Below are positions 986 through 48,946 of a stretch of 54,353 nucleotides of DNA, piece by piece; the first letter of the stretch is position 1, and each line of letters starts with the position of its first letter. A program made the position numbers and the translations under genes. Origin of the DNA: a virus; the IMG/VR virus record IMGVR_UViG_3300025617_000030, positions 1 through 54,353 of that record; one strand, written 5' to 3'. A model generated the notes under the pieces. It did no database searches. It saw only the letters and a list, made by a program, of their open reading frames with translations, and was not told the origin of the DNA.

Positions 986-1518
986 AAAAAGTGATAGCGG
1001 CTACGGCCATTCTTCTCCTTGCAGGTTGTTCTGCAAATCCCTTTAAGTCTGATACCACACAGATCAAAGCATCATCAGGTGCAAACTCTGTTCCTACATG
1101 GTATCTCGAAACACCAAAGGACAATGGTGTGATCATCTATGCCTCTGCAACAGGTATCTCTGATGACATGCAGTTCTCTATGGATAAGGCTATGCACGAA
1201 GCAAAGGTCACTCTTGGTGATAAGGTTGGTACGCTCGTATCATCCGAGACCAAGAAGTATATTGGTGACAATGCTGCAGGAGCTTTGAGTCGGACAACAC
1301 AAAAAACAGAACGAGTATCTAAGTCTGGTTTTAAGAATGTCAATGTCTCAAACTATATTGTTGAGAACAAAGCAATCTTTACCGAGAGTGGAAATTACCG
1401 CACATACGTACTCCTCAGCCTGAATATCGAGGGAGCTCCAGAACCAGAACCTGAGGTGACAAATGACTTCTCTCAAGAAGACGACGCTCGCGCTAACGCT
1501 GCTCTTGATCAGCTCTAA
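982..1518 (+). CDS. LPP20-like outer-envelope lipoprotein
   Basis: 178 aa. The N-terminus MKKVIAATAILLLAGCS is a clear type II signal peptide with lipobox LLAGC, so the mature protein would start at Cys16 and be lipidated. The body (TWYLETPKDN, then a long amphipathic region with KAMHEAKVTLGDKV) resembles LPP20-type lipoproteins. The C-terminus is acidic and Ala-rich. A virus-encoded lipoprotein could act in superinfection exclusion or as the outer-membrane part of a lysis complex; neither is shown. It starts in the ATGA overlap of the HAD gene, and the signal peptide of the next gene begins inside its last 56 bases. Confidence 0.75.
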   Translation: MKKVIAATAILLLAGCSANPFKSDTTQIKASSGANSVPTWYLETPKDNGVIIYASATGISDDMQFSMDKAMHEAKVTLGDKVGTLVSSETKKYIGDNAAGALSRTTQKTERVSKSGFKNVNVSNYIVENKAIFTESGNYRTYVLLSLNIEGAPEPEPEVTNDFSQEDDARANAALDQL

Positions 1519-2838: not shown

Positions 2839-3386
2839 AGATTGTGCATGAATCATTGTTTGTGACAGATAAGATCGCAGATTTCTATTCCGAAAAGGAT
2901 GGTGTGCCGGTCAAGTACGTTTGTACATCTGCGCTCGGCGGACAGGAGTTTGCGGTAGATGTTTTCTATCGCTCTACCCCGCATCCAGATTTCGGCAATC
3001 ATTACTTTGGCATCTACCGAAATCCACATTGGGCTGGATCAAACGTTATGATTACCAACGCAGATGTGATCGAGGAACTTAAGTTTGGTATGGTCGAAGA
3101 TGATGATGGTAACTTCCATTACTCTGCGCACAGGCATGATTATAAGATGCTTGAGAACGGTAACATGATAGACGGTGGACGAGCATATGTTCGTACTAAC
3201 ACAGACACAACAATGTTTAAGGTGAAAGACGGTGAGTTTCAAGAAGTACCTATTGAAGATGCTTCAGGTACGGACGAAGAAGTTTCCAAGATGGAAGAAC
3301 AGGGTAGCGTGGGATCTGAGCAAAGAGGGGTAATGGGAGATCTTAAATTTACCACTGCCGGAGACTATATCAATGGAAAAGATTGA
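2835..3386 (+). CDS. Hypothetical protein ending in GDLKFTTAGDYI tail
   Basis: 183 aa. Residues 1-130 form a soluble aromatic-rich domain (DVFYRSTPHPDFGNHYFGIY); residues 135-160 are an acidic linker; residues 165-183 repeat the MGDLKFTTAGDYI peptide of the 32-aa gene at 1776. This looks like fusion or duplication of the short gene onto a larger protein. The start overlaps the upstream stop (ATGA). Function unknown. Confidence 0.65.
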   Translation: MKIVHESLFVTDKIADFYSEKDGVPVKYVCTSALGGQEFAVDVFYRSTPHPDFGNHYFGIYRNPHWAGSNVMITNADVIEELKFGMVEDDDGNFHYSAHRHDYKMLENGNMIDGGRAYVRTNTDTTMFKVKDGEFQEVPIEDASGTDEEVSKMEEQGSVGSEQRGVMGDLKFTTAGDYINGKD

Positions 3387-8857: not shown

Positions 8858-9375
8858 TGAGATGGTATGTCCTTGAGAAGATAATCAAGGAAAGAGGTTA
8901 CGTAATTGGTGCTGAACTTGGTGTATGGAGAGGTAAGACATACAAGCATCTTCTCTCAGAGTGTAGCAGCCTAACACTTATTGGCGTTGACCTATATGAA
9001 CCCCAACCGGATTCAGAAGGACCCGAGAAGTGGGTACCAGGTGAAAACGGACACGAGTGGGATCATAATAAGTATTATAGTGATATTCAAAGCTTTCAAA
9101 GTAAGATAGGTGAGAGAGCAAGGTTCTATAAGATGACGACATTAGATGCAGCAAAAGAAGTAGAAGACGCATCACTTGATTTTGTGTTCATCGACGCTGA
9201 CCACTCATACGAAGGAGTCAAGAATGATATTGCTGCATGGTCGCCAAAGGTAAGAAACGGTGGTTGTGTCATAGGACACGACATCGACTGGGATCCAGTT
9301 CTGCAAGCTGTCACAGAAGAGTTCGGATCTGATTTTGTAAAACTAGATGACAATGTGTGGTGTGTGAATAAATGA
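8854..9375 (+). CDS. Class I SAM-dependent methyltransferase
   Basis: 173 aa. The motif I-like stretch GAELGVWRGKTYKHLL near residues 19-34 and the acidic LIGVDLYEP after the second strand fit SAM binding; FVFIDADHSYEGVKND matches the Methyltransf_24 signature, where Asp/His bind metal or substrate. Substrate unknown; similar enzymes sit in sugar and polysaccharide clusters. It overlaps its neighbours by four bases on each side and sits between a probable glycan protein and a glycosyltransferase. Confidence 0.8.
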   Translation: MMRWYVLEKIIKERGYVIGAELGVWRGKTYKHLLSECSSLTLIGVDLYEPQPDSEGPEKWVPGENGHEWDHNKYYSDIQSFQSKIGERARFYKMTTLDAAKEVEDASLDFVFIDADHSYEGVKNDIAAWSPKVRNGGCVIGHDIDWDPVLQAVTEEFGSDFVKLDDNVWCVNK

Positions 9376-10037
9376 TTACAGTTGCATGTGTGAAGTGGGG
9401 AAACAAGTATACCTCGCAGCATGTAAACTCACTAGCTCGCATGATTCATGAGCATTCTACGTTTGACTATGAGTTTATATGCCTGACCGATAGACCTAAT
9501 GGCGTTGAGCTAAGAACAAAAGAATTCACATCAGATGAGATCGAAGGATGGTGGGCAAAGATGAATCTATTTGCCGATCACGGATTTCATGACAAGGTAT
9601 TATATTTCGATCTAGATGTAATTATTCATCGAAACATAGATTGTTTGGTTCAAGACTCGGATAAGTCATTTGTGTCAATCCGTGACTTTCATTACCCAGA
9701 TGTGTTTAATTCATCTGTGATGTTCTGGGATCGTGATGCAATGAGAAACCTCTGGGATACTTACGAACAGGATCCAACCAAACCACGCGAGATCCATAAA
9801 GGTGATCAAGACTATATCACTGAGTTAGTAAAGGCAGGTGATGATTGGTCCACCTATCCGGATGAGTGGACTTGGTCATGGAAGTGGGGTGATGAAAGAA
9901 CAAACAAACCAGTCAAGCAAAAACAGTTCCACCTGACAAAAGAATCAAGAGTTGCAGTCTTCCACGGCCGGCCGAACCCGTGGGAAATAGATATGAATGA
10001 ATTCAATAAAACTGTGTACAACAACCAGAAATCTTGA
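9372..10037 (+). CDS. GT-A type glycosyltransferase
   Basis: 221 aa. CVKWGNKYTSQHVNSLARMI opens the nucleotide-binding fold, KVLYFDLDVIIH contains the DxD metal/nucleotide-sugar motif, and FNSSVMFWDRD is the typical acceptor-side segment. Family close to GT8-like bacterial/phage enzymes. A paralogue with the same opening (CVKWGDKYSAEYVN) lies at 40266-40931 on the other strand. Probably modifies host surface glycans, virion proteins or DNA bases; the sequence does not decide. The tmRNA promoter lies in its last codons. Confidence 0.8.
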   Translation: MITVACVKWGNKYTSQHVNSLARMIHEHSTFDYEFICLTDRPNGVELRTKEFTSDEIEGWWAKMNLFADHGFHDKVLYFDLDVIIHRNIDCLVQDSDKSFVSIRDFHYPDVFNSSVMFWDRDAMRNLWDTYEQDPTKPREIHKGDQDYITELVKAGDDWSTYPDEWTWSWKWGDERTNKPVKQKQFHLTKESRVAVFHGRPNPWEIDMNEFNKTVYNNQKS

Positions 10038-10043
10038 TATAAT
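10015..10043 (+). promoter_or_regulatory. tmRNA promoter, TGTACA-N17-TATAAT
   Basis: TGTACA at 10015-10020 and TATAAT at 10038-10043 with 17 bases between, overlapping the end of the glycosyltransferase gene. The expected start (about 10050) coincides with the 5' end of the tmRNA acceptor piece. Confidence 0.75.
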
Positions 10044-10049
10044 AGATAT

Positions 10050-10330
10050 TATTGATTCAGTGAGGCTGATGATAAGACATTTGGACGTGGGTGCGATTCC
10101 CACCACCTCCACCATAAACACACAAACTTGCAAGTTGTAGTGTGTTTATGATGGGGGTGAACAGGTTCGACAGGTGTTGGAAGGTCAGAAGAGAATCACC
10201 TAAAGTAACTGCAAACGATAGCACTTACGCCCTTGCTGCCTGATTAGGCTAGCGGAGTCACAACGAGGCTTGGCAACAGAATCCCTTACCTTGGGACCGT
10301 TGCTCCTGGACAAGAGTTTAAACTGTCCAC
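10050..10330 (+). ncRNA. ssrA: Circularly permuted (two-piece) tmRNA
   Basis: The 3' half comes first: T stem/loop GTGGG-TGCGATT-CCCAC (10087-10103), acceptor strand CACCTCC (10104-10110), then A and an encoded CCA (10112-10114). A 38-base spacer folds into a perfect 9-bp hairpin (TAAACACAC with GTGTGTTTA). The 5' half follows: acceptor strand GGGGGTG at 10153-10159, which pairs with CACCTCC and has G3:U70, the alanine identity pair; then the D-arm-like GGTTCGACAGG. Bases 10174-10188 pair with the segment ending in AAGACAT (about 10065-10079) as helix P2 with an internal loop. A tag frame lies at 10211. This order is known from alphaproteobacteria and some cyanobacteria and betaproteobacteria. 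The outer ends are estimated; a 6-bp hairpin (10307-10329) probably closes the coding piece. Confidence 0.92.
10211..10243 (+). other. tmRNA tag reading frame, tag (A)ANDSTYALAA
   Basis: From the GCA resume codon the frame reads ANDSTYALAA and stops at TGA. It follows AGTAACT, the expected upstream context for the resume codon. The AND start and ALAA end match known degradation tags, which are recognised by ClpXP-type proteases. The middle (ST) lacks the acidic/Asn residues usual at that place. Confidence 0.88.
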
Positions 10331-10341
10331 TTGGAGGATGT

Positions 10342-10527
10342 ATGCATCAGAAATATGAGTACCCACAACAATTTGAACCAGCAGACTTATCTGAGGGATA
10401 CGAGTATGTTCATTGGTGCATTCGCCATGGCATCGAAATAGACTTCTACAACCTTCCGCCTGAGCTCATCGGCGATCTTCTCACCATAAAGATAAAAGAA
10501 TTTTCAAAACACGATATAAGTGATTGA
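10342..10527 (+). CDS. Hypothetical small protein (61 aa)
   Basis: ATG 10342 follows GGAGG (10333-10337); longer versions would run back into the tmRNA and are rejected. The product MHQKYEYPQQFEPADLSEGY and onward is aromatic and acidic (HWCIRHGIEIDFYNLPPELI). Unknown function. It may be translated from a transcript that also carries the tmRNA precursor. Confidence 0.55.
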   Translation: MHQKYEYPQQFEPADLSEGYEYVHWCIRHGIEIDFYNLPPELIGDLLTIKIKEFSKHDISD

Positions 10528-10569
10528 AAACCCTACCGAAAAAAAAGTGAAAAAAAACTAAAAAAAGTG

Positions 10570-10597
10570 TGTACATCTCCTGGTAACTTGGTATAAT
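10570..10597 (+). promoter_or_regulatory. TGTACA-N16-TATAAT promoter with A-tract and operator-like palindrome
   Basis: TGTACA at 10570-10575 and TATAAT at 10592-10597, spacing 16. An A-rich tract (about 10539-10567) precedes it like an UP element. The -10 runs into the palindrome ATGGTACCAT at about the start site. Bases from the -10 to the SD (TATAATGGTACC, then GAGGAGA) are repeated exactly at 12558. Confidence 0.8.
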
Positions 10598-10625
10598 GGT
10601 ACCATAATCAATGAGGAGATACATT

Positions 10626-10886
10626 ATGTTGAAATTTGAAAACCTTGCTCAAGTCGGTGACCGCATCCGTGCTTACGACTTCATGGGTAACAAGGAAGCC
10701 TTCATCGAAGGTAAGGTTGTCGCGAAAGGCGCAATCACCCACCCTGTCACAGGTATGTACATGTACGAAGCGTACAGCATCGAGATTGACGTTGATGGTG
10801 CGGATTTTGGTCGTGAGGGTGACGTAGGTTACGTACCTTTCGAATCTGGTATGATGGAATATGATGATCGTGTGGAGTTAGTGTAA
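10626..10886 (+). CDS. Hypothetical early protein (86 aa)
   Basis: ATG 10626 is set by the SD GAGGAG about nine bases upstream, in a leader directly behind a strong promoter. MLKFENLAQVGDRIRAYDFM and the following GKVVAKGAITHPVTG suggest a small beta-barrel. It resembles conserved early proteins of T4-like marine phages, function unknown to me. The stop overlaps the next start (TAATG). Confidence 0.65.
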   Translation: MLKFENLAQVGDRIRAYDFMGNKEAFIEGKVVAKGAITHPVTGMYMYEAYSIEIDVDGADFGREGDVGYVPFESGMMEYDDRVELV

Positions 10887-11053
10887 TGAAAAATGAAATG
10901 ATGGACGCAGTGGTTTACAAGATGATGTTGGATTTGGACCGTATCGCGAATGATATGAACGAAGATCAAAAGGCTCAGGTTCGTAAGGCAATGAGCGCGT
11001 TAGTCCGGTTGCGTGTCTATGTTTCCACTGAAGAGGAAGCCGTCAATGCGTAG
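10886..11053 (+). CDS. Hypothetical small helical protein (55 aa)
   Basis: A short frame missed by length cutoffs. The ATG overlaps the upstream stop (TAATG) and the stop overlaps the next start at 11046. The sequence is helical and charged (MKNEMMDAVVYKMMLDLDRI, then EDQKAQVRKAMSALVRLRVY). The coupled position on both sides supports it. Unknown function. Confidence 0.6.
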   Translation: MKNEMMDAVVYKMMLDLDRIANDMNEDQKAQVRKAMSALVRLRVYVSTEEEAVNA

Positions 11054-11273
11054 CATTGACGTGCCAGGTGCAAAAGAGATCTTCGCGAAACAGGATGAGC
11101 TCCTGAAAACTTTCACAGTCAATCGTGGATACATCAAAGCCGCAATGGCAATCCACGAGGCTGTGCGCGATGATTACTTCTTTGAGAGGATGCGTAAGCT
11201 ACGTGCCTCTACTTCCTACGATCGTGCCGCAAAGGCTTACTACGATAAGCACGGCACTAAAGGAGAGTTCTAA
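11046..11273 (+). CDS. Hypothetical protein (75 aa)
   Basis: I chose ATG 11046 (MRSIDVPGAKEIFAKQDELL) over an in-frame ATG at 11013, which would overprint more of the preceding gene. Mostly helical and basic (FERMRKLRASTSYDRAAKAY). The stop overlaps the next start (TAATGG). Unknown function. Confidence 0.6.
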   Translation: MRSIDVPGAKEIFAKQDELLKTFTVNRGYIKAAMAIHEAVRDDYFFERMRKLRASTSYDRAAKAYYDKHGTKGEF

Positions 11274-11512
11274 TGGAATCAATGTCAAATGCTCAAATGA
11301 TGCAGTGGCTCCGGACGAAGATGGATGCTGTAGAGATCGAGATCAGGTACCTAGAAGAAATCTTGTGTACAACAAATGGTCCAGCAAATGAGTTAATTAA
11401 TTCACTTTTTTTGCAAAAAGCTATGTACAAAGACTATCAAACAGAGTATAATAGGTACTATAAAAAATGTCAAGAGGAGAAGCTTAATGACACCACAACA
11501 GAAAGCCGCTAG
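11273..11512 (+). CDS. Hypothetical helical protein (79 aa)
   Basis: Coupled at TAATGG to the upstream gene. Two helices are likely (MDAVEIEIRYLEEIL, then QKAMYKDYQTEYNRYYKKC). A promoter for the next gene lies inside its coding sequence. Unknown function. Confidence 0.55.
   Translation: MESMSNAQMMQWLRTKMDAVEIEIRYLEEILCTTNGPANELINSLFLQKAMYKDYQTEYNRYYKKCQEEKLNDTTTESR
11424..11452 (+). promoter_or_regulatory. TGTACA-N17-TATAAT promoter (intragenic)
   Basis: TGTACA at 11424-11429 and TATAAT at 11447-11452, spacing 17, inside the 79-aa gene. The next gene (11487) follows after an AGAGGAG SD, giving a short leader. Confidence 0.7.
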
Positions 11513-11765
11513 ACTTCAACTTATTCGTGAGATCGCAGAGAAGTACGAGAACAAAAACTTGTTCGCAAAGAAGATGCGTATGCAAGCAATCCGTGCTCGT
11601 AAGATCTCAGAAGCTCAGCAACTGAAAGAAGAACGTCAGCTTGATCGTCAGCTACAAAAGCTTGACGAGAACCACAACCACTGGACAGACGCATCTGCGT
11701 TTGCTAAGCAAGCGGTTGGTGATACGTTCATCGCTACCACACGCTTTGACAACGATTGGGACTAA
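11487..11765 (+). CDS. Hypothetical basic helical protein (92 aa)
   Basis: ATG after AGAGGAG. Strongly charged, Lys/Arg/Gln-rich helix over the first 60 residues (MTPQQKAARLQLIREIAEKY, then KKMRMQAIRARKISEAQQLK), then an acidic/aromatic tail (TRFDNDWD). It could bind nucleic acid, which is only inference. It overlaps the end of the preceding gene. Confidence 0.6.
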   Translation: MTPQQKAARLQLIREIAEKYENKNLFAKKMRMQAIRARKISEAQQLKEERQLDRQLQKLDENHNHWTDASAFAKQAVGDTFIATTRFDNDWD

Positions 11766-11766
11766 T

Positions 11767-12096
11767 ATGTCTACTCCAGCCTGGAAAAAACGTGCACGAC
11801 AAGAGATACACGTCAAGCAAAAAGAGAAGCGTGAGTATGAGAAGCTTCTCTCAGGAATCAGCAAGGTAAAGCAAGAGTTCAAGGATTACAAGCCGAAACA
11901 AGCATTTACTCGTGATGTCAAAGAGTATCCGAGTATGTCTACATCAGATGTGATTCCTGGCACTTGCTCAAAGACTGAGCCACAGCAGTATAGTGGTGAC
12001 TACATTGTTGGTATTGCTACTATGCATAAATCAAATCTCGTACCAGTCGGTAAGGATCAAGACCCGGCAGAGTACGCCACGATGAGACGTAACTAA
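11767..12096 (+). CDS. Conserved T4-like phage hypothetical (109 aa)
   Basis: Start ATG 11767 (MSTPAWKKRARQEIHVKQKE) directly after the previous stop. A basic helical N-terminal half is followed by a conserved-looking C-terminal segment GDYIVGIATMHKSNLVPVGK. I recall this C-terminal motif in many cyanophage and marine T4-like genomes; no function is known. It overlaps the next start (TAATGG). Confidence 0.7.
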   Translation: MSTPAWKKRARQEIHVKQKEKREYEKLLSGISKVKQEFKDYKPKQAFTRDVKEYPSMSTSDVIPGTCSKTEPQQYSGDYIVGIATMHKSNLVPVGKDQDPAEYATMRRN

Positions 12097-12263
12097 TGGA
12101 AATAGAACTTATAGATTATAACGAGGATACCGGCGTTATGAATCTAAACCTCGATGAGGAAGCAAGGCAATATCTGATCGAGTTAGGTATGAATGCGCTC
12201 TTAAAACGAGCTATAAACGAAATGATAGAGGAATATGAAGATGAACAGACAGCAGATGATTGA
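12096..12263 (+). CDS. Hypothetical small acidic protein (55 aa)
   Basis: A short frame coupled to both neighbours: its ATG overlaps the upstream stop and its end overlaps the next start by about 23 bases. MEIELIDYNEDTGVMNLNLD is followed by a helical half (ARQYLIELGMNALLKRAI) with a Leu/Ile pattern typical of phage-conserved small proteins. Function unknown. Confidence 0.6.
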   Translation: MEIELIDYNEDTGVMNLNLDEEARQYLIELGMNALLKRAINEMIEEYEDEQTADD

Positions 12264-12510
12264 AGCTCTTCGCAAGGGTTATTGTAACGTAGAATTCACC
12301 AAGGTAAATGGTGAGACACGGATCATGGAATGTACGCTTAAAGAAGACATGATTCCTGATAATATGCGTCCTAAGACTGATGGCAATCTGTCAGAAGGTG
12401 TTGAGCGCACGATCGATGTTATTAAAGCTTACGATGTTCGTGCAGCCGGCTGGCGTTCATTCAAAGTAGATAATGTTCTTAACTTTGAATCATACAGTGT
12501 TGATTCATAA
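12241..12510 (+). CDS. SH3-fold WYL_2/DUF2693-like protein
   Basis: ATG 12241 is preferred because the SD GAGGAA lies at a normal distance; the ATG at 12235 is too close. MNRQQMIEALRKGYCNVEFT plus KVNGETRIMECTLKEDMIP and AYDVRAAGWRSFKVDNV is the pattern of the small SH3-like proteins found in many T4-like phages (WYL_2/DUF2693). Related folds bind ligands or nucleic acid as regulators; the role here is unknown. It is the last gene before the second A-tract promoter. Confidence 0.7.
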   Translation: MNRQQMIEALRKGYCNVEFTKVNGETRIMECTLKEDMIPDNMRPKTDGNLSEGVERTIDVIKAYDVRAAGWRSFKVDNVLNFESYSVDS

Positions 12511-12534
12511 AAAGAAAAAAAGCGAAAATAGTTG

Positions 12535-12563
12535 TGTACAAACCTCATTTTATGTCGTATAAT
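12535..12563 (+). promoter_or_regulatory. TGTACA-N17-TATAAT promoter, twin of 10570
   Basis: TGTACA at 12535-12540 and TATAAT at 12558-12563. Like the site at 10570 it has an A-rich tract upstream and the ATGGTACCAT palindrome right after the -10. The two copies are identical from the base before the -10 to the SD. Confidence 0.8.
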
Positions 12564-12592
12564 GGTACCATAATCAATGAGGAGAACAACAC

Positions 12593-12778
12593 ATGACTAC
12601 ACTTGATATGATTAAAGAGCTCAACGCTATGGTTGCTAATTCAATGATCCAACCTACTCTTGCTTCAAAAGCGATCACATACATCTCACAAGCGGATGCA
12701 GATGAGATCGACGATTTCGATTGCATGAAGACAAGTGAAGCAGTTGACATGGTTTTAGATATTGTAAGGTACATCTAA
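12593..12778 (+). CDS. Hypothetical protein (61 aa)
   Basis: ATG 12593 with GAGGAGA upstream in the promoter leader. Short helical acidic protein (MTTLDMIKELNAMVANSMIQ, then SEAVDMVLDIVRYI). The stop overlaps the next start (TAATGG). Unknown function. Confidence 0.6.
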   Translation: MTTLDMIKELNAMVANSMIQPTLASKAITYISQADADEIDDFDCMKTSEAVDMVLDIVRYI

Positions 12779-13908
12779 TGGCAGTGCGTAAGAAAAAAGT
12801 AGTTGTTCCACGTCGTCCAAAGACCGGACTCGGTGCAGTTCCATTGGACCACAAGCGTGGGTTCGAAGCAATCAAGTATTATTTTCACTATGAGTTAGAC
12901 ACGAAGTCATGTGCTTCGTGCATCAAAGATTATGTAAAGCGTGAATATACAGAGGAACAGGCAAAAGCAATTCTCTTATGTCCTGAGTATAAGTTCACGA
13001 TAATGAGTCACCACGCAGCCACAGCCTTTCTATTAACGAAAGACTATGACTTCGGTGAAAAGTACTCGGTGTATCCACCTGCCCTCAAGAAGTATTGTGA
13101 TGAACTACTTGTGATGGGGCAGACGCTTCTTGAAGAGAAAAAGCAAGAAGCAACCGCCACAAGCAATATCGTTGTCCTCTCTCCTCAGCAACGACTTGCT
13201 CGCAAGGTCAATAACACGATCATGCGCGACCTCGATGAGCTCGAGGATAAGTGGATCACCGGGGACAAAGCATCAATGGATATTATTCCTGCGATGCAAA
13301 AGTATGAACTCAAGGGTGCGGCCGTTCCCCTCATTAGGCCCACCCTTGAGGGATTACTCCTTGATTACAAAGATGCTTATGAGAAGAACTGCGAACAAGC
13401 AGTAGAAGGTTATTCGCATCTGACACGACGTGAGATCAAGCGTCGTGCCACAGAACTTGAGAAGATGTTATCTGACCTTGACTCATTCACTAGCATGCAA
13501 AAAGCAAAACGTACGGTTCGTGCGAAGAAGCCTAAGGCTGCTGACAAGCAAGTTGCAAGGGTCAAGTACAAGAAGGAAGATGGTGACTACAAGATTGCAT
13601 CGATCAATCCTACACAGATCGTTGGTGCGAACCAGCTATATGTCTTCAATACAAAGTATCGACAACTCATGGTGTATGTCACGACAGCGACAAAAGGCTT
13701 TGAGGTGAGTGGTACATCAATCAAGAACTTTGAATCAGATCTGTGCACGAAGATCACGATCCGTGCAAACAAGGTCGATGAGGTTCTCAAGGCTGTTCTA
13801 AATAAGACGCCGAAGCAGATCGATAAGTTCTTAGATACTATAAATAGCAAACCATCCGTACCAAACGGACGTCTCAATGAAGAGACGATATTACTCAGGG
13901 CGATTTAA
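12778..13908 (+). CDS. Conserved T4-like marine phage protein upstream of gp33
   Basis: 376 aa. Basic N-terminus (MAVRKKKVVVPRRPKTGLGA), a helical middle with Cys pairs (KSCASCIKDYV), a Lys/Arg-rich linker (AKRTVRAKKPKAADK) and a C-terminal part with KYKKEDGDYKIASINPTQIV and VYVTTATKGFEVSG. Its place directly before gp33-gp59-gp32 is conserved in cyanophage-like genomes, and its basic regions suggest nucleic acid or replisome contact, but no function is established that I know of. A late promoter lies near its 3' end. Confidence 0.7.
   Translation: MAVRKKKVVVPRRPKTGLGAVPLDHKRGFEAIKYYFHYELDTKSCASCIKDYVKREYTEEQAKAILLCPEYKFTIMSHHAATAFLLTKDYDFGEKYSVYPPALKKYCDELLVMGQTLLEEKKQEATATSNIVVLSPQQRLARKVNNTIMRDLDELEDKWITGDKASMDIIPAMQKYELKGAAVPLIRPTLEGLLLDYKDAYEKNCEQAVEGYSHLTRREIKRRATELEKMLSDLDSFTSMQKAKRTVRAKKPKAADKQVARVKYKKEDGDYKIASINPTQIVGANQLYVFNTKYRQLMVYVTTATKGFEVSGTSIKNFESDLCTKITIRANKVDEVLKAVLNKTPKQIDKFLDTINSKPSVPNGRLNEETILLRAI
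13839..13846 (+). promoter_or_regulatory. Late promoter TATAAATA
   Basis: TATAAATA inside the 376-aa gene, about 60 bases before gp33. It would allow late expression of the late-transcription accessory protein. The coding context makes it less certain than intergenic copies. Confidence 0.5.
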
Positions 13909-14132
13909 TGGAAGAAGTTATTCTCACAAAGAAACGATTTGAGAAGATGGTAGAAGAAAAAGTTACCACACTCTCTATGAGTTACATGGATGCGATCCTC
14001 AAGGTATGTGAGGATCGAACCATTGATCCGGGTGATGTAAGCAAGTTCATTACACCGGTGATTAAACAAAAGGTTGAGGCAGAAGCTATCAATCTCAATA
14101 TGATGAAAGGCGGGAACACCTTACCACTATGA
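13908..14132 (+). CDS. 33: Late promoter accessory protein gp33-like
   Basis: 74 aa. The segment YMDAILKVCEDRTIDPGDVS followed by KFITPVIKQKVEAEAINLNM and a short tail is the conserved core of T4 gp33-like proteins of marine phages. In T4, gp33 bridges RNA polymerase and the gp45 clamp so that gp55-RNA polymerase initiates at TATAAATA promoters; the many such promoters here fit. Order gp33-gp59-gp32 matches T4-like genomes. It overlaps both neighbours by one to four bases. Confidence 0.8.
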   Translation: MEEVILTKKRFEKMVEEKVTTLSMSYMDAILKVCEDRTIDPGDVSKFITPVIKQKVEAEAINLNMMKGGNTLPL

Positions 14133-14704
14133 TTGCACCATTTGAAGCATTTCGTTATTATCAAGCCTTGAAGCTTCACTTTGATTCAGACTCATATGAT
14201 GCAGTCAAGTACAACTACAAAACATCTGTGAAGCAGCAGTCGTTTTGGAAACGTAAAGATAAGTACTTCTTTGCAAAGGCTGGTAACCGTTTTAGTAAAG
14301 TACCAGAACTCATCAACTTCTATGTTGCCCACTTCATTAGTGATGTGAAGTGGATAGGCGAGATGGATAAAGATGACATCTATGTTCAATGGTGTAAGAA
14401 GATACAGAGCATCTCATATACCTTTGAACAAGAGATATATAACTTATCAGAGACCGTTGATTCATTCAATGATCTCTTTGAGATTGATACACACCCACTC
14501 GTTGTTACAAAGTATCTAGAGGGTGATGTCAGTCTCGAGACGCTTGTCATTTTAGACAGGCTGACCGGTTTCGTTCAGCGGGCAGGTATCACGGAAACAA
14601 TTATCTGGCCTGATCTGAAACGAAAGATCCTGAAGTATAGACCTTTCGTCAACGTCGATGAGATGAAGATGAAAAATATTATACTAAAGGTGTTTACATC
14701 ATGA
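14129..14704 (+). CDS. 59: gp59-like replicative helicase loader
   Basis: 191 aa (T4 gp59 is 217). MIAPFEAFRYYQALKLHFDS opens the N-terminal HMG-like domain; YDAVKYNYKTSVKQQSFWKR and YFFAKAGNR are typical of the family. gp59 loads the gp41 helicase on gp32-coated DNA. It sits between gp33 and gp32, as expected. The gp32 promoter lies at its 3' end. Confidence 0.85.
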   Translation: MIAPFEAFRYYQALKLHFDSDSYDAVKYNYKTSVKQQSFWKRKDKYFFAKAGNRFSKVPELINFYVAHFISDVKWIGEMDKDDIYVQWCKKIQSISYTFEQEIYNLSETVDSFNDLFEIDTHPLVVTKYLEGDVSLETLVILDRLTGFVQRAGITETIIWPDLKRKILKYRPFVNVDEMKMKNIILKVFTS

Positions 14705-14721
14705 GCAAATCGTGATACAAT
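14693..14721 (+). promoter_or_regulatory. gp32 promoter (TTTACA-N17-TACAAT)
   Basis: TTTACA at 14693-14698 and TACAAT at 14716-14721, spacing 17, about 40 bases before the gp32 start. A sigma70-like site; it differs from the TGTACA family in the -35. Confidence 0.55.
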
Positions 14722-14759
14722 ATACACTGTAAATACACTGCAATACAAAGGAAAATACT

Positions 14760-15671
14760 ATGTCATTTCAAAACCTCAAGTCCCGCTCTGCGGATATCTC
14801 CAAACTCGTAGCTGCCGCTGAACAAGCAGGTGGTGGTTCTCAAGATAAGAAGTCATACGGTGATGATCGTTACTGGCGTCCTGAAGTGGATAAGTCAGGT
14901 AACGGCTATGCTGTTCTTCGTTTTCTCCCAGCACCTGAAGGCGAAGATCTTCCATGGGTGAAGTACTGGGATCACGGTTTCAAAGGTCCTACCGGTCTTT
15001 GGTACATCGAGAACTCACTGACTACTATCGGTCAGCCAGATCCAGTCTCTGAGATGAATACTCAGTTGTGGAATACTGGCAATGATGAAGACAAGAAGAC
15101 TGTACGTGAACGTAAGCGTCGTCTCCACTATGTGTCTAACATCATGGTTGTCTCTGATCCTGCTAACCCACAGAACGAAGGCAAAACCTTTATGTTCCGT
15201 TATGGTAAGAAGATCTTTGACAAGATCATGGACGTCATGCAGCCTGAGTTTGCTGATGAGGAACCAGTAAATCCATTCGATTTCTGGGAAGGTGCTAACT
15301 TCAAGTTGAAGATTCGTAACGTCGAAGGTTATCGTAACTACGATAAGTCTGAGTTCGATTCTGCTTCTAAGTTGGCAGATGATGAGAAGCTTGAGTCAAT
15401 CTACAACGGTCTGTATTCACTTGCCGAAGTGGTTGATCCAAAGAACTTCAAGTCATATGACGAGCTTAAGACTAAGCTCCACCGTGTGCTTGGTGAAGAT
15501 GCTGTGTTTACCACAGCTGAGCAAGTCTCATTGGACGAGACTGCTCCTGCACCATCATACACCGCTGCACCAGAGCCTGTTGCTACAGCGGCTCCGGCTC
15601 CCGCTATGACTGCGGATGACGATGAAGATGATACTTTGTCGTACTTTGCACGACTCGCGAACAGCGAATAA
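14760..15671 (+). CDS. 32: Single-stranded DNA-binding protein gp32
   Basis: 303 aa, like T4 gp32 (301). N-terminal MSFQNLKSRSADISKLVAAA includes the basic cooperativity region, then the OB-fold core (GYAVLRFLPAPEGEDLPWVK, YWDHGFKGPTGLWYIENSLT, NPFDFWEGANFKLKI). The C-terminus is Ala/Pro-rich and ends in an acidic tail (DDDEDDTLSYFARL) for replisome contacts. The zinc-binding Cys of T4 gp32 are absent; there is no Cys in the core region. An AAAGGAAA SD precedes the ATG and a strong terminator follows. Confidence 0.93.
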   Translation: MSFQNLKSRSADISKLVAAAEQAGGGSQDKKSYGDDRYWRPEVDKSGNGYAVLRFLPAPEGEDLPWVKYWDHGFKGPTGLWYIENSLTTIGQPDPVSEMNTQLWNTGNDEDKKTVRERKRRLHYVSNIMVVSDPANPQNEGKTFMFRYGKKIFDKIMDVMQPEFADEEPVNPFDFWEGANFKLKIRNVEGYRNYDKSEFDSASKLADDEKLESIYNGLYSLAEVVDPKNFKSYDELKTKLHRVLGEDAVFTTAEQVSLDETAPAPSYTAAPEPVATAAPAPAMTADDDEDDTLSYFARLANSE

Positions 15672-15674
15672 GAG

Positions 15675-15699
15675 AAAGGGACCTTCGGGTCCCTTTTTT
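15675..15699 (+). terminator. Rho-independent terminator after gp32
   Basis: A GGGACC stem with a TTCG loop closed as C-TTCG-G and GGTCCC (15678-15693), then six T. AAA before the stem pairs with the T-run, so it may act on both strands between the convergent gp32 and tape-measure genes. Confidence 0.92.
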
Positions 15700-17701
15700 A
15701 TTTCTCCAACATGCGCCAGAGATTATCACGACTGTGTGGTGAATCATCACTCTGTAGAACTGCAGGGCTCTGATTATTACCTTGACTACCAGTAAAGTAG
15801 TTATTATTCACAATAGGTTGTTGCTGACCGAATGCGTTACGCATATCTTCAAGTGAGTTACTCATCATGTTGATTCGATCTGCTGCCATCTCGTAATCAT
15901 TCATATCCAACCGGTTGATCTTCGTTGTTCCATCCTTAATCGCAGATGAGAAACGGCGATAACCACTACCTGCGCCTGCAAGGTCAATCATAGCAAAGCG
16001 AGCAAGCGAATCAGTAAGCTTGTTGAATCCTTCTAGCTTGGTTGCATCGATTTCTTCAAGCGGCTTTAGATTCTTAACCATCTTTTCGAAGATCGTATCA
16101 TCATTCTCTGTACCAAAGATCGCATCAAAGACCTTCGCTACCTGATCACCGATAGCACCAAGACCCTGTGCACCGAGTAGACCTACCATTGCAGGCCCAA
16201 GCAGTGCAAGTGCAGGAACAACCTTCATAAGATTTTCACCGTCAAGTCCTTCAAGCTCTTTCAGTCCGAGTGCGAAGTTCTTGATGATTGGCACAGCACC
16301 GGATCCGTCAACACCAATTGCACCGGCAAGATCACCGATACCAGCGAAGCCAGCAAAGAAGGCTGAGATCCCGGCACCGATTGCTCCCATACCGATAGTA
16401 AACTTTGCAAGTGCAGCTGGACTCGTGACCATACCTACAATACCGCCTGCAGACATCAGAACACCTAACGCTGTCATTGAGTCTTGATCAAGGTAGCTAA
16501 CTGACTCAGCAAATCCTTTGACTGCTTTTTGTACCCCGGTAAAGTCAGCACCTAGAGCAGCGATACCATCAATAGCAGCGAACGGTGCTAGGAACGCAGT
16601 GATACCCAGACCCATTGCACCCATACCCATCACGAATGATGCTTTTTGCTTTGCGGTAGTAATCTTACCGAGGATCGCACCGGCACCGAACAATGCAAGA
16701 AGTGTTGCACCTGACTTAGCGTCTAGGTTACCTACTGCAGCCGAGAATCCTTTTGTAGCCTTCGCGATACCACTAAAGTCGGCGCCAAGCCAAGTAAGTG
16801 CCGCATCACCAGCACCGAGTCCTACAAAGAATGCAGCAATACCAGCGCCGATAGCACCAATACCAATAGCGAATGATGCAGGGTTACGACTTAGAATCGC
16901 AGCGATTCCGCCTGCACTTATGATACCACCGAGTGCGGCCATTGCTTCAGGCTTCAGTGAGAGGATTGCATCAGAGAATCCGGTCATTGCTGCTTTGAGT
17001 TTTGGAAAATTAAAGTCTGCGTTTAGCCACTTGAGTCCATGTTCACCAAGACCAAGTGCGCCAAAGAAAGCAGGAATTGCAGCACCTAGAGCAGCGATAC
17101 CAGTAGCACCGCGTGTGCCACCAATTGCACCAAGTCCCATGATACCGCCAAGGACAACGAACGTATCCTTTGGCAACGAGAGAATCATATCAGAAAAACC
17201 TATCGCAGCCTTCTTAATATTTTCGTAGTTGTAACTTCCGTCTAACCAACCAAGTGCTTTATCACCAGCAGACAACGCGCCGAAGAACGCAGGGATAGCA
17301 GCACCAAGTAATGCAATACCACCGACACCCTTTAAAGCAGCTGCACCTAGAGCACCAATCGCAGCGAGGGCTCCTATACCACCTATATTACCAAGTGAGA
17401 ATCCTTTACCAGATCCGCCGCCTGTTTTAACACCGCCTGCCTTTGAGATCTTTTCAAGGGCTGCAATCATCTTTTCATCACGGGCTTTACGCTCACGACG
17501 TTCTTCTTCATCTAAGGAATTATTTGCTTCAGGTGGTTTGGCAAGGATCTTTACCATTTCCTCGACACGGAACATAGACTTCTTTATCTCGAGAAGATGC
17601 CTACGAGAGTTACGACCATCGCGTTCTATCTCATATATCGAGTTAGCCGAGCGTTGGTTAACTTCTTTCAGTTCTTGGATCAGATCACTTAGTTCTGCCA
17701 T
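15698..17701 (-). CDS. Tape-measure-like tail protein (gp29-like position)
   Basis: 667 aa. Residues 1-95 are a charged coiled coil (LIQELKEVNQRSANSIYEIE). Residues about 105-500 are hydrophobic Gly/Ala-rich with about five repeats of roughly 75 residues (GIGAIGAGIAAFFVGLG, then ADFSGIAKATKGFSAAV). The C-terminus has NNYFTGSQGNNQ and ends SRDNLWRMLEK. Such a hydrophobic, helical, repeated protein next to hub genes (gp26, gp51) fits the tail tape measure, the position of gp29 in T4 (590 aa). Homology to gp29 itself is not obvious. Confidence 0.65.
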   Translation of the reverse strand: MAELSDLIQELKEVNQRSANSIYEIERDGRNSRRHLLEIKKSMFRVEEMVKILAKPPEANNSLDEEERRERKARDEKMIAALEKISKAGGVKTGGGSGKGFSLGNIGGIGALAAIGALGAAALKGVGGIALLGAAIPAFFGALSAGDKALGWLDGSYNYENIKKAAIGFSDMILSLPKDTFVVLGGIMGLGAIGGTRGATGIAALGAAIPAFFGALGLGEHGLKWLNADFNFPKLKAAMTGFSDAILSLKPEAMAALGGIISAGGIAAILSRNPASFAIGIGAIGAGIAAFFVGLGAGDAALTWLGADFSGIAKATKGFSAAVGNLDAKSGATLLALFGAGAILGKITTAKQKASFVMGMGAMGLGITAFLAPFAAIDGIAALGADFTGVQKAVKGFAESVSYLDQDSMTALGVLMSAGGIVGMVTSPAALAKFTIGMGAIGAGISAFFAGFAGIGDLAGAIGVDGSGAVPIIKNFALGLKELEGLDGENLMKVVPALALLGPAMVGLLGAQGLGAIGDQVAKVFDAIFGTENDDTIFEKMVKNLKPLEEIDATKLEGFNKLTDSLARFAMIDLAGAGSGYRRFSSAIKDGTTKINRLDMNDYEMAADRINMMSNSLEDMRNAFGQQQPIVNNNYFTGSQGNNQSPAVLQSDDSPHSRDNLWRMLEK
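16202..17389 (-). repeat. Hydrophobic ~75-residue repeats in tape-measure-like protein
   Basis: Recurring units with GA-rich membrane-like stretch, then GD/LxWLxADF, then KAxxGFSxA, then LxxLxxAGxI. About five units are visible; boundaries are approximate. Unit number could set tail length or membrane contact. Confidence 0.6.
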
Positions 17702-40931: not shown

Positions 40932-41503
40932 AATGTACCTATGACCATGTATCTCTCGTATCGATCGTTGACTTGTGTATCTGCATAATATATATTATTG
41001 AGTCCGGTAGACTCAACGAACTCATCGAGTGAGTTCTTGCAATTCGTATGCTCAGGTATGTGATGATAGTTATTTGACTGTAGTGCATAAACAGGAAAGG
41101 CCGAGACGATATGGTCTTTCATATCAGGCATATGTTCACACGATGTATTGATTACGGTGTCGTATGTTGCCATGTTAATTGACTCCATACGACCATGGAT
41201 ACTTGTTGAGTTGATTGCAGCGTTATGTGCAAACTCATTCGCAATGTTATGTACATGTGGATCGGCATCGAAGCAGGTTATCTTGCTGGTGTGCCTCAAT
41301 AAATAAGGTAGTACTGTGGCATACCATGATCCAATGATACATATGTTCTTTGGTGAATGGTTCTCGTACAAATGCTCAACAAGCCATAACTTTGACTTGA
41401 TTTGAGAATGTGAATAACTTTGAGCGAAATCATGAACCTGTGAGATATCACCTATTCCACGAGTCGTCTTTGATACTGCTTCTACAAACTGTTGGTCGAT
41501 CAT
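40928..41503 (-). CDS. SAM methyltransferase-like protein
   Basis: 191 aa. ICIIGSWYATVLPYLLRHTS resembles motif I, KITCFDADPHVHNIANEFAH gives the acidic residue after the second strand, and YDTVINTSCEHMPDMKDHIV the post-motif segment. Similar proteins are common in cyanophage-type genomes near sugar genes. Its start codon overlaps that of the divergent radical SAM gene (41501-41504). Confidence 0.65.
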   Translation of the reverse strand: MIDQQFVEAVSKTTRGIGDISQVHDFAQSYSHSQIKSKLWLVEHLYENHSPKNICIIGSWYATVLPYLLRHTSKITCFDADPHVHNIANEFAHNAAINSTSIHGRMESINMATYDTVINTSCEHMPDMKDHIVSAFPVYALQSNNYHHIPEHTNCKNSLDEFVESTGLNNIYYADTQVNDRYERYMVIGTL

Positions 41504-42758
41504 GAAAAAATTTTGGTGTCCCGAACCCTATATGACATTTGAACAACGTACGTTTGGTAACTACGGTGTTTGCTGCCGTTCTTATCCCTTACCGTACACG
41601 ATGAAGGATAAGAGCATCGAAGATCATTTCAATTCTGATGAAATGAAAGCTATTCGATCTGAAATGGAGTCTGGTGAACCTGGGCCCTTTGTTTCTAAGT
41701 ATTGTGAAAAATGTATTGCTCATGAAAAGTCTGGTGTTACATCACGACGTCAGCATAGGATTAACCAGCTAGAGGATGCACCGCAAAGCTTTCGCGATCG
41801 TGTTAATGATATTATACACCAATCAGAGCAAAGTGTACATCTATTTATTCAGAATATGGCATTTTATTCGCTTGAGTTTAAGTTCTTTGGTAACCTGTGT
41901 AACCTAAAGTGTATGATGTGTCACCCACATCAATCATCATCGCTTGCAGCTGAGTGGAAAAAGCAAGGCAAGTGGGATGGGCCTACACATATTAACAGCT
42001 ACAATGATATCCAAAGCGAAGACTTTTACCGCGATATGGATATCATGATACCCAATAGCCTTGAGCTTAAGTTCACTGGTGGTGAGCCACTCATGAACAG
42101 AGATATCCTTGACTTGTTACAATACTGTGTTGATAAGAAGTATGCAAAGAACATCAAGCTTGTAATTATTACGAACGGCACAAAGCTGCCAAAAGAATTC
42201 TTGAATATACTGAACTACTTTAAAGAGATCACGATCAATGTATCCCTTGATGGTGTATTCGAGGTAAATGATTATCAGAGGGTAGGATCATCGTTTGATG
42301 TGATCGACCGTCATATCAACCAGCTTATTCGATTCCCGAATGTAAAGGTTCAAGTGACTGCTGCAGTGACCGCTATCAATGTTGGTAGGATTCACCAGGT
42401 CGTAAAGTATGCAGAGAGAAAGAATATCTATGCAGATATATCTAGTATAGTACTAAAACCAAAACATCTGTCTGTATCAGTATTACCCAGGAGGATACGT
42501 GACATATACATTGAAAAGAACAAAGGACTCACAGAGGTTATATCCGCATTGGATCACGATGACGTCGAGAGCGAGAAACTGCTTCCTGCTTTTATACAGA
42601 CCTTACGAAACAAGGATGCAAGGGACGGAACAAATTTCATTGACATCATCCCGGAGCTAGAACATGAACTACGAGAGACTATTGACATACGGACACTTCA
42701 TTCCGCTGACTCTTACCTGCGATCCCACCAGGCTTCTCAGTCAGATATCGAAATTTGA
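41502..42758 (+). CDS. Radical SAM enzyme with extra Cys sites
   Basis: 418 aa. C133-x3-C137-x2-C140 (NLCNLKCMMCHPH) binds the SAM-coordinating 4Fe-4S cluster; ELKFTGGEPLMNRD supplies the GGEP motif; VSLDG and the following strands complete the barrel. N-terminal Cys (C6, C24, C25, C68, C71) lie in GNYGVCCRSYP and KYCEKCIAHE, the layout of twitch/SPASM-related extra cluster sites. The substrate is unknown; peptides or sugars are typical. It ends overlapping a 2OG oxygenase by 95 bases. Confidence 0.82.
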   Translation: MKKFWCPEPYMTFEQRTFGNYGVCCRSYPLPYTMKDKSIEDHFNSDEMKAIRSEMESGEPGPFVSKYCEKCIAHEKSGVTSRRQHRINQLEDAPQSFRDRVNDIIHQSEQSVHLFIQNMAFYSLEFKFFGNLCNLKCMMCHPHQSSSLAAEWKKQGKWDGPTHINSYNDIQSEDFYRDMDIMIPNSLELKFTGGEPLMNRDILDLLQYCVDKKYAKNIKLVIITNGTKLPKEFLNILNYFKEITINVSLDGVFEVNDYQRVGSSFDVIDRHINQLIRFPNVKVQVTAAVTAINVGRIHQVVKYAERKNIYADISSIVLKPKHLSVSVLPRRIRDIYIEKNKGLTEVISALDHDDVESEKLLPAFIQTLRNKDARDGTNFIDIIPELEHELRETIDIRTLHSADSYLRSHQASQSDIEI

Positions 42759-44012: not shown

Positions 44013-44658
44013 TTAGATCTCCGAGATCAATCATGTCTTTATTTATATAATAAACATCACCTTTTGGGTGGCGTTTTCTGGCTTGATCAGCGTCTTTTGC
44101 AAAAACAGTGTATGGTGTACCTACGAGTCCAGCAAGGTGAGATGTAGAACCTGGATAACCATAGTGTCTCTTTGCATGTTTTAAATATTTGTGTACATCT
44201 GCGATAGGCATGGTATAATCTAAATATACCACATTAAGGTCAGGAGGTACAATGACATCTACATACTTCCATTCTTCCCAGTCGTATTTACGTTTTGCAA
44301 ACTCAGGTTCTAGCTTCTGAACCGTGATGTAATCACCATTACCTATCCAACCGTCAGAGAACTTCCATACAGGCAGTGAACCAGTAAAGTTCATGGTATC
44401 TAGCTTCTCGGCTTTACCATCAAAATATATCTTTCGGTCCTTACCTTCCATGGCAGAGTTAATGTACAATAATCGATCAACTACTGTTTCTGAATCAGCG
44501 TCTTTATATTTTTCGTAAAGCTTTTCGTCACCGTCATAATGTATCGATTCATATCCCATGATATATGCATAGGATAACGACCATACCATATCACCGTAAC
44601 CAGGCTTAAAGACTGTCTCGTACACGGTACCACTCCTCTGCGTAATTTGTCGTTTCAC
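43996..44658 (-). CDS. GT9-like glycosyltransferase (tentative)
   Basis: 220 aa. VFKPGYGDMVWSLSYAYIMG near the N-terminus resembles the GD-x-nonpolar motif, and YPGSTSHLAGLVGTPYTVFA the nucleotide-sugar site of heptosyltransferase-like GT-B enzymes (GSxxHLAGLxGTP). It is about half the size of a full GT9 enzyme, so one Rossmann half may be reduced. The start at 44658 overlaps the upstream gene by 53 bases; a GTG at 44625 is an alternative. Confidence 0.6.
   Translation of the reverse strand: MKRQITQRSGTVYETVFKPGYGDMVWSLSYAYIMGYESIHYDGDEKLYEKYKDADSETVVDRLLYINSAMEGKDRKIYFDGKAEKLDTMNFTGSLPVWKFSDGWIGNGDYITVQKLEPEFAKRKYDWEEWKYVDVIVPPDLNVVYLDYTMPIADVHKYLKHAKRHYGYPGSTSHLAGLVGTPYTVFAKDADQARKRHPKGDVYYINKDMIDLGDLNAKPI
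44040..44047 (-). promoter_or_regulatory. Late promoter TATAAATA on the - strand
   Basis: TATTTATA on the + strand; TATAAATA on the - strand, 28 bases before the oxygenase start at 44012. It shows that at least this part of the island can be expressed late, with virion genes. Confidence 0.7.
44192..44219 (+). promoter_or_regulatory. TGTACA-N16-TATAAT site, antisense
   Basis: TGTACA at 44192-44197 and TATAAT at 44214-44219 on the + strand, inside a - strand gene. No + strand gene starts within 2.7 kb, so it would produce an antisense or long untranslated RNA, or may be inactive. Confidence 0.45.
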
Positions 44659-45241: not shown

Positions 45242-45732
45242 CTCATCACCTTGATCGTGTGTCCGTCTCTGACTGTGTCATACATAAAATTTACTCTATC
45301 GGTTTTTCCATGGTTCCATGCATAATGCAATTGTGTGTCGTCAAATGTAAAAAACGTTCCAGGCTCAAACATCGTGTCTTTACCATTGACATTGATACCT
45401 GCATCTGCAGATGAGTACAAGCAAAGGTGGGATCTCCATACGTGATCGGCATAGTCGTCGTAACCACGATGTGGCTTGAGCATGCAACCAGGCCTAAGAA
45501 TTGAGAACGCGCAGTTGATCATACCATCAATGAGTGGGTCTAGTCTAGTTGACCTGATAATCTTTTGTTTGTCTACGAGAAAGATCGTATCCCAACCTCT
45601 ATTATAGAGATCCTTTTCCACCCACTCATGAGCCTCTGAAGAGATCTCATCATAGACTTCCCGGATGAGATCAATAGAGTTTTGAATGGTCGTATGCAAT
45701 TCTGTGTACAATTCTTTCTTCCATATTTTCAA
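45238..45732 (-). CDS. Aspartyl/asparaginyl beta-hydroxylase-family oxygenase
   Basis: 164 aa. H88 in LKPHRGYDDY, the HLCLY strand, and H136 plus R146 in LHYAWNHGKTDRVNFMYD give the Asp_Arg_Hydrox pattern, which often uses two histidines without the usual acid. The family hydroxylates Asp/Asn or amino acids. The 5' end overlaps the next gene by 62 bases in another frame. Confidence 0.78.
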   Translation of the reverse strand: MKIWKKELYTELHTTIQNSIDLIREVYDEISSEAHEWVEKDLYNRGWDTIFLVDKQKIIRSTRLDPLIDGMINCAFSILRPGCMLKPHRGYDDYADHVWRSHLCLYSSADAGINVNGKDTMFEPGTFFTFDDTQLHYAWNHGKTDRVNFMYDTVRDGHTIKVMR

Positions 45733-46444
45733 ACGGCCAACGCTTGTGAATCGAAAGCCATTGTTCAGATATCACTACATCACCATCTTCCCAGTCATGA
45801 TGATACATGTATTTTTCCTGTAGTACATGTTCCACGAGTTCATCATATAGTTCTTTGTCTATCCCATCAAGGATCTGCAAGAAGGGAAAGAATAAACCTT
45901 TTTGTCCCTCTTCATTAGTGTAAACCAACGGTTGAGGGTTAGCATAATTGACATGCTCATGGAAGTAATCTGTTGTCGAGTACTTACCACTTTGATAACC
46001 ACATATGACAGTTTCTCTTTCGACCCTTAGTTTCATCTTATCAGACAGATCATTGTATGCCTCGATCATATTAATCCAAGATGTGCGAGATCCCTTTGTG
46101 TTTGATACACCATGAATCCATATAAATGGTTTACGATCTGGATTCGATGGTGAGTTAGCATGCCAATCTAAAACAGATTTATGCCCGAAGAGACCTGGAC
46201 GACCCTTGTCATCTTTCTTACCAGTGACACGGATGATACCTTTATGAGCTCGAATGTTTTCATACCTAGGATCATCCGAGTCTTCAATATCACCGACAGC
46301 AGAACAAATACCGTACTCATCCTCTGGTTGCATCTTTTGATTCTTAAATACAACAACAGTCTCACGCATTACCTGACGATGAATGTTACGTATCTCATCA
46401 CCAGACAAAGAGTTAAGATTAATCTCATAAATTACGGGTTGCAT
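45671..46444 (-). CDS. TauD/TfdA-like dioxygenase
   Basis: 257 aa. Overall order fits the TauD family: VVFKNQKMQPEDEYGICSAV, then W94-H95-A96-N97 in the place of WHxD, and H233 with R244/R248 toward the end. N97 in place of the usual Asp leaves the facial triad altered, as in some phage members I recall; activity is therefore uncertain. It is coupled by overlaps to both neighbours. Confidence 0.7.
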   Translation of the reverse strand: MQPVIYEINLNSLSGDEIRNIHRQVMRETVVVFKNQKMQPEDEYGICSAVGDIEDSDDPRYENIRAHKGIIRVTGKKDDKGRPGLFGHKSVLDWHANSPSNPDRKPFIWIHGVSNTKGSRTSWINMIEAYNDLSDKMKLRVERETVICGYQSGKYSTTDYFHEHVNYANPQPLVYTNEEGQKGLFFPFLQILDGIDKELYDELVEHVLQEKYMYHHDWEDGDVVISEQWLSIHKRWPFENMEERIVHRIAYDHSKLY

Positions 46445-47007
46445 GATTTAAGCTCCTTGAGAAAACTATCGTCTCCCCATGTATAAAAAAATTGTGGTAC
46501 GCTTCTATATAGTAGCATTTGAGGGTGTGCAATATACGGAGTATTGAATCGTTTGAGTATGTTCTCCATACTGTTCTTTTTACCTGATATATAGTTTCGC
46601 GTGAAGAAGACTGTGTCTATACCAAAGTCGGTATGGTGAGGATAATTATTATAGAAATTATATATCTCACCATCTAGATATTTCCATAGCTCTCGATTTT
46701 GCCAATGATTCTTTCCTCGATCTACATCGATGTGTAGATCAGGCCTACGGTAGAGACGATTAAATCCACGGGCAACATTAGCAGGTAAGTCAGGATCCTG
46801 ATACAAACCAAACATACCAATGGGCACATCTCGGTGACAGAGAACTGTAATAAATACAGATGATGGTATTAGGTCATGCTTATAATTATTTTTATACGGA
46901 TTGGTCTCATCGGTTGCTGCCGTCAAAAGCAGATCCATGTACCCATCAAACCTTTTACGGGTCACAACGAAACTTAAATCATAAGAAAGTTTATGAACAT
47001 GAAACAT
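46432..47007 (-). CDS. Acyltransferase-like hypothetical protein
   Basis: 191 aa from ATG 47007 (MFHVHKLSYDLSFVVTRKRF); a longer frame to 47031 would reach further into the divergent desaturase gene. VFITVLCHRDVPIGMFGLYQ is compatible with a GNAT-like strand, but no acyl-CoA signature is clear. It overlaps the TauD-like gene by 13 bases. The start lies inside the divergent desaturase gene start. Confidence 0.5.
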   Translation of the reverse strand: MFHVHKLSYDLSFVVTRKRFDGYMDLLLTAATDETNPYKNNYKHDLIPSSVFITVLCHRDVPIGMFGLYQDPDLPANVARGFNRLYRRPDLHIDVDRGKNHWQNRELWKYLDGEIYNFYNNYPHHTDFGIDTVFFTRNYISGKKNSMENILKRFNTPYIAHPQMLLYRSVPQFFYTWGDDSFLKELKSCNP

Positions 47008-48916: not shown

Positions 48917-48946
48917 TATTATATCATGATTTCTTTGTTCTGTACA

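Follow-up and report, generated by a model that had tools for sequence, protein, structure and literature searches.

At 10050-10334 (+) of the window, by which we mean the whole 54,353-nt stretch analysed here, a 54-kb linear virus record, lies a circularly permuted tmRNA gene, identified by covariance models, by ARAGORN and by direct reading of the sequence (Table 1). RF04321 (tmRNA_permuted) matches over its full length (model 1-213) at 10054-10243 with 97 bits (E 1.2e-17) against a curated gathering cut-off of 47 bits, and RF01849 (alpha_tmRNA) matches at 10011-10290 with 75.1 bits against a cut-off of 50 bits, so that both are full-length matches well over their thresholds. RF01849, the alphaproteobacterial type, is the top-scoring permuted subtype, an assignment in which overlapping lower-scoring matches of the same clan are omitted, and the window's mRNA-like piece is shorter than the alpha consensus of this model. 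ARAGORN places a permuted tmRNA at 10022-10334 with the tag ANDSTYALAA. For the DNA pattern of the permuted order the expectation in shuffled sequence is 0, and the tmRNA folds more stably than its shuffles (z-score -2.7).

A first-pass annotation, made from the letters alone, had described a tRNA-like 3' half with encoded CCA ahead of the 5' half, a 38-base hairpin spacer, acceptor halves joined with a G3:U70 pair, a P2 helix that can form across the two pieces, and a tag frame. All of these parts are present, with a spacer of exactly 38 nt and with G3:U70 as the alanine identity pair, and the covariance-model search that it had proposed returned the scores given above, not the score no better than that of shuffled sequence that it had named as speaking against a tmRNA.

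Table 1. Features of the tmRNA locus, its promoter motif and its downstream module, with separate genes of segment families in other contigs
Feature	Position	Strand	Basis or remark
Promoter motif at the tmRNA	10015-10043	+	TGTACA, 17 nt, TATAAT; extended -10 TGATATAAT (10035-10043), TG before TATAAT
Further motif copies	1718-1746, 2711-2739, 10570-10597, 11424-11452, 12535-12563, 44192-44219	+	
Further motif copies	48918-48946, 41811-41839	-	
tRNA-like 3' piece (acceptor piece)	10054-10114	+	RF04321 alignment; start is model start; ends in CCA
P2 strand GACATTT	10076-10082	+	Sequence reading, consistent with RF04321 pairing; partner 10172-10178
T arm GTGGG-TGCGATT-CCCAC	10087-10103	+	RF04321; covarying T stem
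Acceptor 3' strand CACCTCC	10104-10110	+	RF04321; U70 at 10108
Encoded CCA	10112-10114	+	Direct reading; preceded by A73
Intervening segment, 38-nt hairpin	10115-10152	+	-10.8 kcal/mol; predicted to be removed in maturation
Acceptor 5' strand GGGGGTG	10153-10159	+	G3 at 10155; mRNA-like 5' piece begins here
P2 strand AGGTGTT	10172-10178	+	Sequence reading, consistent with RF04321 pairing
Tag reading frame	10211-10243	+	ARAGORN; GCA resume codon, ANDSTYALAA, TGA
Remaining mRNA-like piece	10244-10334	+	ARAGORN end 10334; alpha model to 10290; 3' end predicted
61-aa ORF	10342-10527	+	Directly after tmRNA; Shine-Dalgarno overlaps tmRNA 3' end
gp33 late-transcription coactivator	13908-14132	+	PF16805, E 9e-21; phrog_254; opens conserved downstream module
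gp59 helicase loader	14129-14704	+	phrog_269, E 2e-51
gp32 single-strand DNA-binding protein	14760-15671	+	phrog_224, E 7e-115
Segment family as separate gene	L368 4142-4270		Directly beside tmRNA
Segment family as separate gene	L060 2720-2815		Directly beside tmRNA
Segment family as separate gene	L217 6133-6219		Directly beside tmRNA

Promoter and genome context

Nine copies of a TGTACA-N16..18-TATAAT motif are present in the window, where 0.03 would be expected, and one of them precedes the tmRNA. Several copies sit shortly upstream of start codons, TG often precedes TATAAT, and the repeated motif is probably the early promoter of this phage. A promoter at 10015-10043 would put the start of transcription close to 10050, where the tmRNA model match has its 5' end; the extended -10 element shares bases with the stop codon of the preceding glycosyltransferase gene (9372-10037). 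The earlier claim that the tmRNA stands under its own promoter is borne out at the sequence level by the excess of the motif, and the motif and model matches support reading the interval as a permuted tmRNA gene of a T4-like phage under a promoter-like element.

That the carrier is a T4-like phage, as also proposed, agrees with the T4-type structural and replication genes in the window: gp6, gp5, gp2, gp59, gp32, gp33, baseplate wedge and hub, and tail tube. The gp6 protein is nearest to those of the cultured phages Melnitz (42.7% identity), Mosig (40.9%) and HTVC008M (40.2%), and gp32 is nearest to those of cyanophages (about 58%). These gene comparisons identify the contig as that of a T4-like marine myophage, with Melnitz, Mosig and HTVC008M as relatives. 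The window also holds a metabolic cluster, with a radical SAM protein (41502-42758), a TauD-type dioxygenase (45671-46444), a fatty-acid-desaturase-like protein (46993-47793) and a weak aminotransferase match (47783-48916).

A single metagenomic contig could in principle be an assembly chimera or include host DNA. We regard this as extremely unlikely, as the junctions are identical in an independent contig (L206, with the same locus unchanged save one undetermined base downstream), T4 genes flank the tmRNA on both sides, and the synteny recurs across dozens of contigs as well as in the cultured phage Mosig. The 61-aa ORF directly downstream has no convincing family or phage match, and no relatives except the identical copy in L206. 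Mosig has gp33 at this place, and gp33 was ruled out as the identity of the 61-aa ORF, with no alignment and no family match; the window's own gp33 lies about 3.6 kb from the tmRNA.

Conservation among phages and proposed role

Scanning viral contigs with a pattern for permuted tmRNAs with short spacers gave at least 120 matches. Of the matches listed, 51 are loci with recognisable gp33, gp59 or gp32, and every one of the 51 has gp33 on the tmRNA strand and downstream of the tmRNA; the same rule holds for gp59 (46/46) and gp32 (30/30). The phage tmRNA thus has a stable home upstream of the module that encodes the late-transcription coactivator and replication proteins. In 49 of the loci listed, tmRNA and gp59 distances are correlated (Mantel r 0.58, p 0.0002), which indicates that the gene has travelled, or been inherited, with the phage core. 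The same kind of scan returned no match in bacterial contigs, for which the patterns were too strict. Matches by blastn include Bohxovirus and the schitovirus Alcaligenes phage QDWS595 (L005), and in the latter ARAGORN finds an unannotated permuted tmRNA at 2943-3319 with the tag ANDNVYAAAA.

The fold can be followed in the T stem, which the search pattern left free; the acceptor stem was fixed by that pattern and so gives no independent evidence. Of the 110 distinct phage copies among the matches listed, 103 have a fully paired T stem, and all four Watson-Crick types occur at its positions 1 and 2; the window's T loop, TGCGATT, is found in 10. This covariation shows that the fold has been kept in phages. 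Among 65 distinct phage tags in the matches listed, 64 end in AA and 42 in ALAA, and together with the T-stem pairing these endings indicate that the tRNA-like part and the tag are both maintained.

The tmRNA was present in 3 of 50 records picked by gp32 similarity, which is a lower bound, many of these records being fragments, and which includes L127, where ARAGORN alone missed the gene and the covariance model detected it. That no tmRNA was found in most close gp32 relatives implies a dispensable gene, and this patchiness would suit a gene taken from a host not long ago and now drifting without a function. Such a history is nonetheless quite improbable, for fold, tag and promoter are intact, the place of the gene is conserved, it is co-inherited with the phage core, and the compensatory T-stem changes among phage copies largely refute it.

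We therefore favour, with a probability of roughly 0.8, the view that the window gene is functional and encodes a two-piece tmRNA of alphaproteobacterial type in a lytic T4-like marine phage. The steps of its action are proposed by analogy with bacterial two-piece tmRNA. Host RNA polymerase would transcribe the gene from its sigma70-like promoter, host tRNA-processing enzymes would cut out the hairpin to leave two base-paired pieces, and host alanyl-tRNA synthetase would charge the product with alanine. Host SmpB would then bring it to ribosomes that have stalled on nonstop or broken messages, a frequent event, presumably, during the destruction of host DNA and mRNA. Rescue would free ribosomes for phage translation, and the stalled peptides would be marked with (A)ANDSTYALAA, a typical degradation tag.

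SmpB was found neither in the window nor in the complete Mosig and Melnitz genomes, so host SmpB would be needed, and why phages keep a tmRNA yet rely on host SmpB is a testable question. The absence of a phage SmpB also suits a different role, in which the phage RNA acts as a decoy, binding SmpB or alanyl-tRNA synthetase of the host so that trans-translation there is blocked. There is precedent for this in the tmRNA of mycobacteriophage DS6A, which has a tRNA-like domain only, and a molecule similar to it is reported to inhibit tmRNA (PMC4131195, PMC11915505). However, a decoy would need no reading frame, whereas the window's tag is open and ends in ALAA, and 64 of the 65 distinct phage tags among the matches listed end in AA; we consider the decoy unlikely, and ribosome rescue remains our preferred role for the RNA.

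Small reading frames in long intervening segments

No ORF was found inside the window's 38-nt intervening segment. The corresponding segments are 114-154 nt in Melnitz and in L127, L137 and L165, which are among the closest gp32/gp59 relatives. Scans for segments of 92-122 nt and of 123-153 nt gave at least 120 matches each, and requiring the acceptor and T stems left 204 distinct long segments among the matches listed. The ends of these segments pair at 8 or 9 of 9 positions in 94% (3% in shuffled sequence), and all 16 loci sampled scored above the RF04321 or RF01849 cut-off.

Of these 204 listed segments, 28 hold a complete ORF that starts with ATG, is 20 codons or longer and has a Shine-Dalgarno sequence. 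Dinucleotide shuffles gave 1.8 (maximum 5), and the reverse strand gave 1; further ORFs extend past the segment and stop within the tmRNA 5' piece. Segments of 90-154 nt with Shine-Dalgarno-led ORFs occur in L127, L137 (L207), Melnitz (L003), L344, L368, L385, L374, L292, L263, L247 and others. The ORFs fall into several conserved, mutually unrelated families, among them MWIYKC..EGFRD, MYYVMNLKTG.., ..GDLSKHRLHTTKYEDLCK, MNWDWHWISWFKG.., ..YICINNYS.., MFDRLTEFF..YLSG and MKHYINWF...; the Melnitz segment would encode MFKWLSKTRLVVITRDYF... Ten representative ORFs had no match in PHROG, and of three compared with isolate phages two had no match and one had a match at E 0.5 in a terminase gene.

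Most clean families with at least three members have pN/pS of 0.23-0.46, indicating purifying selection, and two mixed clusters of poorly alignable members have 0.64-0.76. Variable sites at the three codon positions number 104/75/184, a third-position excess with p 7e-12, in which columns within a family are partly dependent and the choice of families for protein likeness favours the result somewhat. These patterns make it likely that the nested ORFs are real translated genes.

Some of the segment families also stand outside the segment, next to the tmRNA or away from it, as with MNWDWHW beside the tmRNA in L368 and YEDLCK in eight loci. In three contigs, L368 among them, such families form separate genes directly beside the tmRNA (Table 1), which suggests cassette exchange. 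In T4-like marine phages the segment may be a slot in which small-protein genes of roughly 21-54 residues are exchanged; the nested genes themselves are well supported by sequence. The window would be a short-slot member without a cargo gene, and its near relatives L127 and L137 bear unrelated cargo ORFs there.

The stop codon often lies either 10-12 nt before the segment end or, as in the L292, L374, L418 and L247 families, 13 nt into the 5' piece of the tmRNA (GGGG..GAAATAG). Where it lies inside the 5' piece, excision of the segment would separate the message from its stop codon, and we conjecture that the resulting nonstop message could be a substrate for the phage's own tmRNA, giving a self-limiting loop.

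Intervening sequences of tmRNAs have been reported to hold a tRNA-Ala in one case and a repeat in another (PMC11915505), and we did not find protein genes in these segments described in tmRNA papers (PMC11915505). If translated, the nested ORFs would be a new arrangement, with protein genes in the excised part of a phage non-coding RNA precursor, so that the precursor would be tmRNA precursor and message simultaneously. They would then have escaped annotation through the tmRNA label that the region bears.

Comparison with known phage tmRNAs

The first-pass annotation had been unsure whether phage copies of two-piece tmRNA had been described. They have: the Melnitz tmRNA was described in 2022 in a study that counted 53 two-piece structures in genomes of phages (50 marine or aquatic), and the neighbouring transcription coactivator and early promoter were noted and similar roles proposed (PMC9004378); SsrA is annotated in the GenBank records of Mosig and Melnitz; and a 2025 tmRNA database holds 79 phage sequences (PMC11915505). 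Phage two-piece tmRNA is therefore already known as a kind, of which the window is a further member, so that one more phage is known to carry a ribosome-rescue RNA of its own. What we add to this literature is the 51/51 gp33-gp59-gp32 synteny among the matches listed, the T-stem covariation in 110 copies and the absence of SmpB from Mosig and Melnitz.

The SsrA of Pelagibacter phage Mosig EXVC030M (MT647606) resembles the window's tmRNA in being permuted, of alpha type, with a short hairpin spacer (44 nt in Mosig) and upstream of gp33-gp59-gp32. Its tag is GEDNFALAA rather than ANDSTYALAA, and gp33 directly follows the tmRNA in Mosig, then thyX, whereas in the window the two are separated by the 61-aa ORF and by small genes spanning about 3.6 kb.

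To our knowledge, the tmRNAs of the mycobacteriophage Bxz1 group and of Bacillus phage G are not permuted. These phages, which like the window carry an ssrA gene, belong to groups other than the window's (PMC4131195). The SsrA of Methylophilales phage Melnitz (MZ577095-8; PMC9004378) is, like the window's, permuted, of alpha type and upstream of gp33-gp59-gp32. A glutamine riboswitch just after the Melnitz tmRNA match has no counterpart in the window, where RF01739 is absent from 9000-15800 even at E<=1; RF01739 is present in Melnitz and in L221, where its match at 1019-1072 (-) likewise follows a permuted tmRNA directly. The Melnitz intervening segment is 142 nt long and has a Shine-Dalgarno-led ORF, in contrast to the 38-nt, ORF-free segment of the window.
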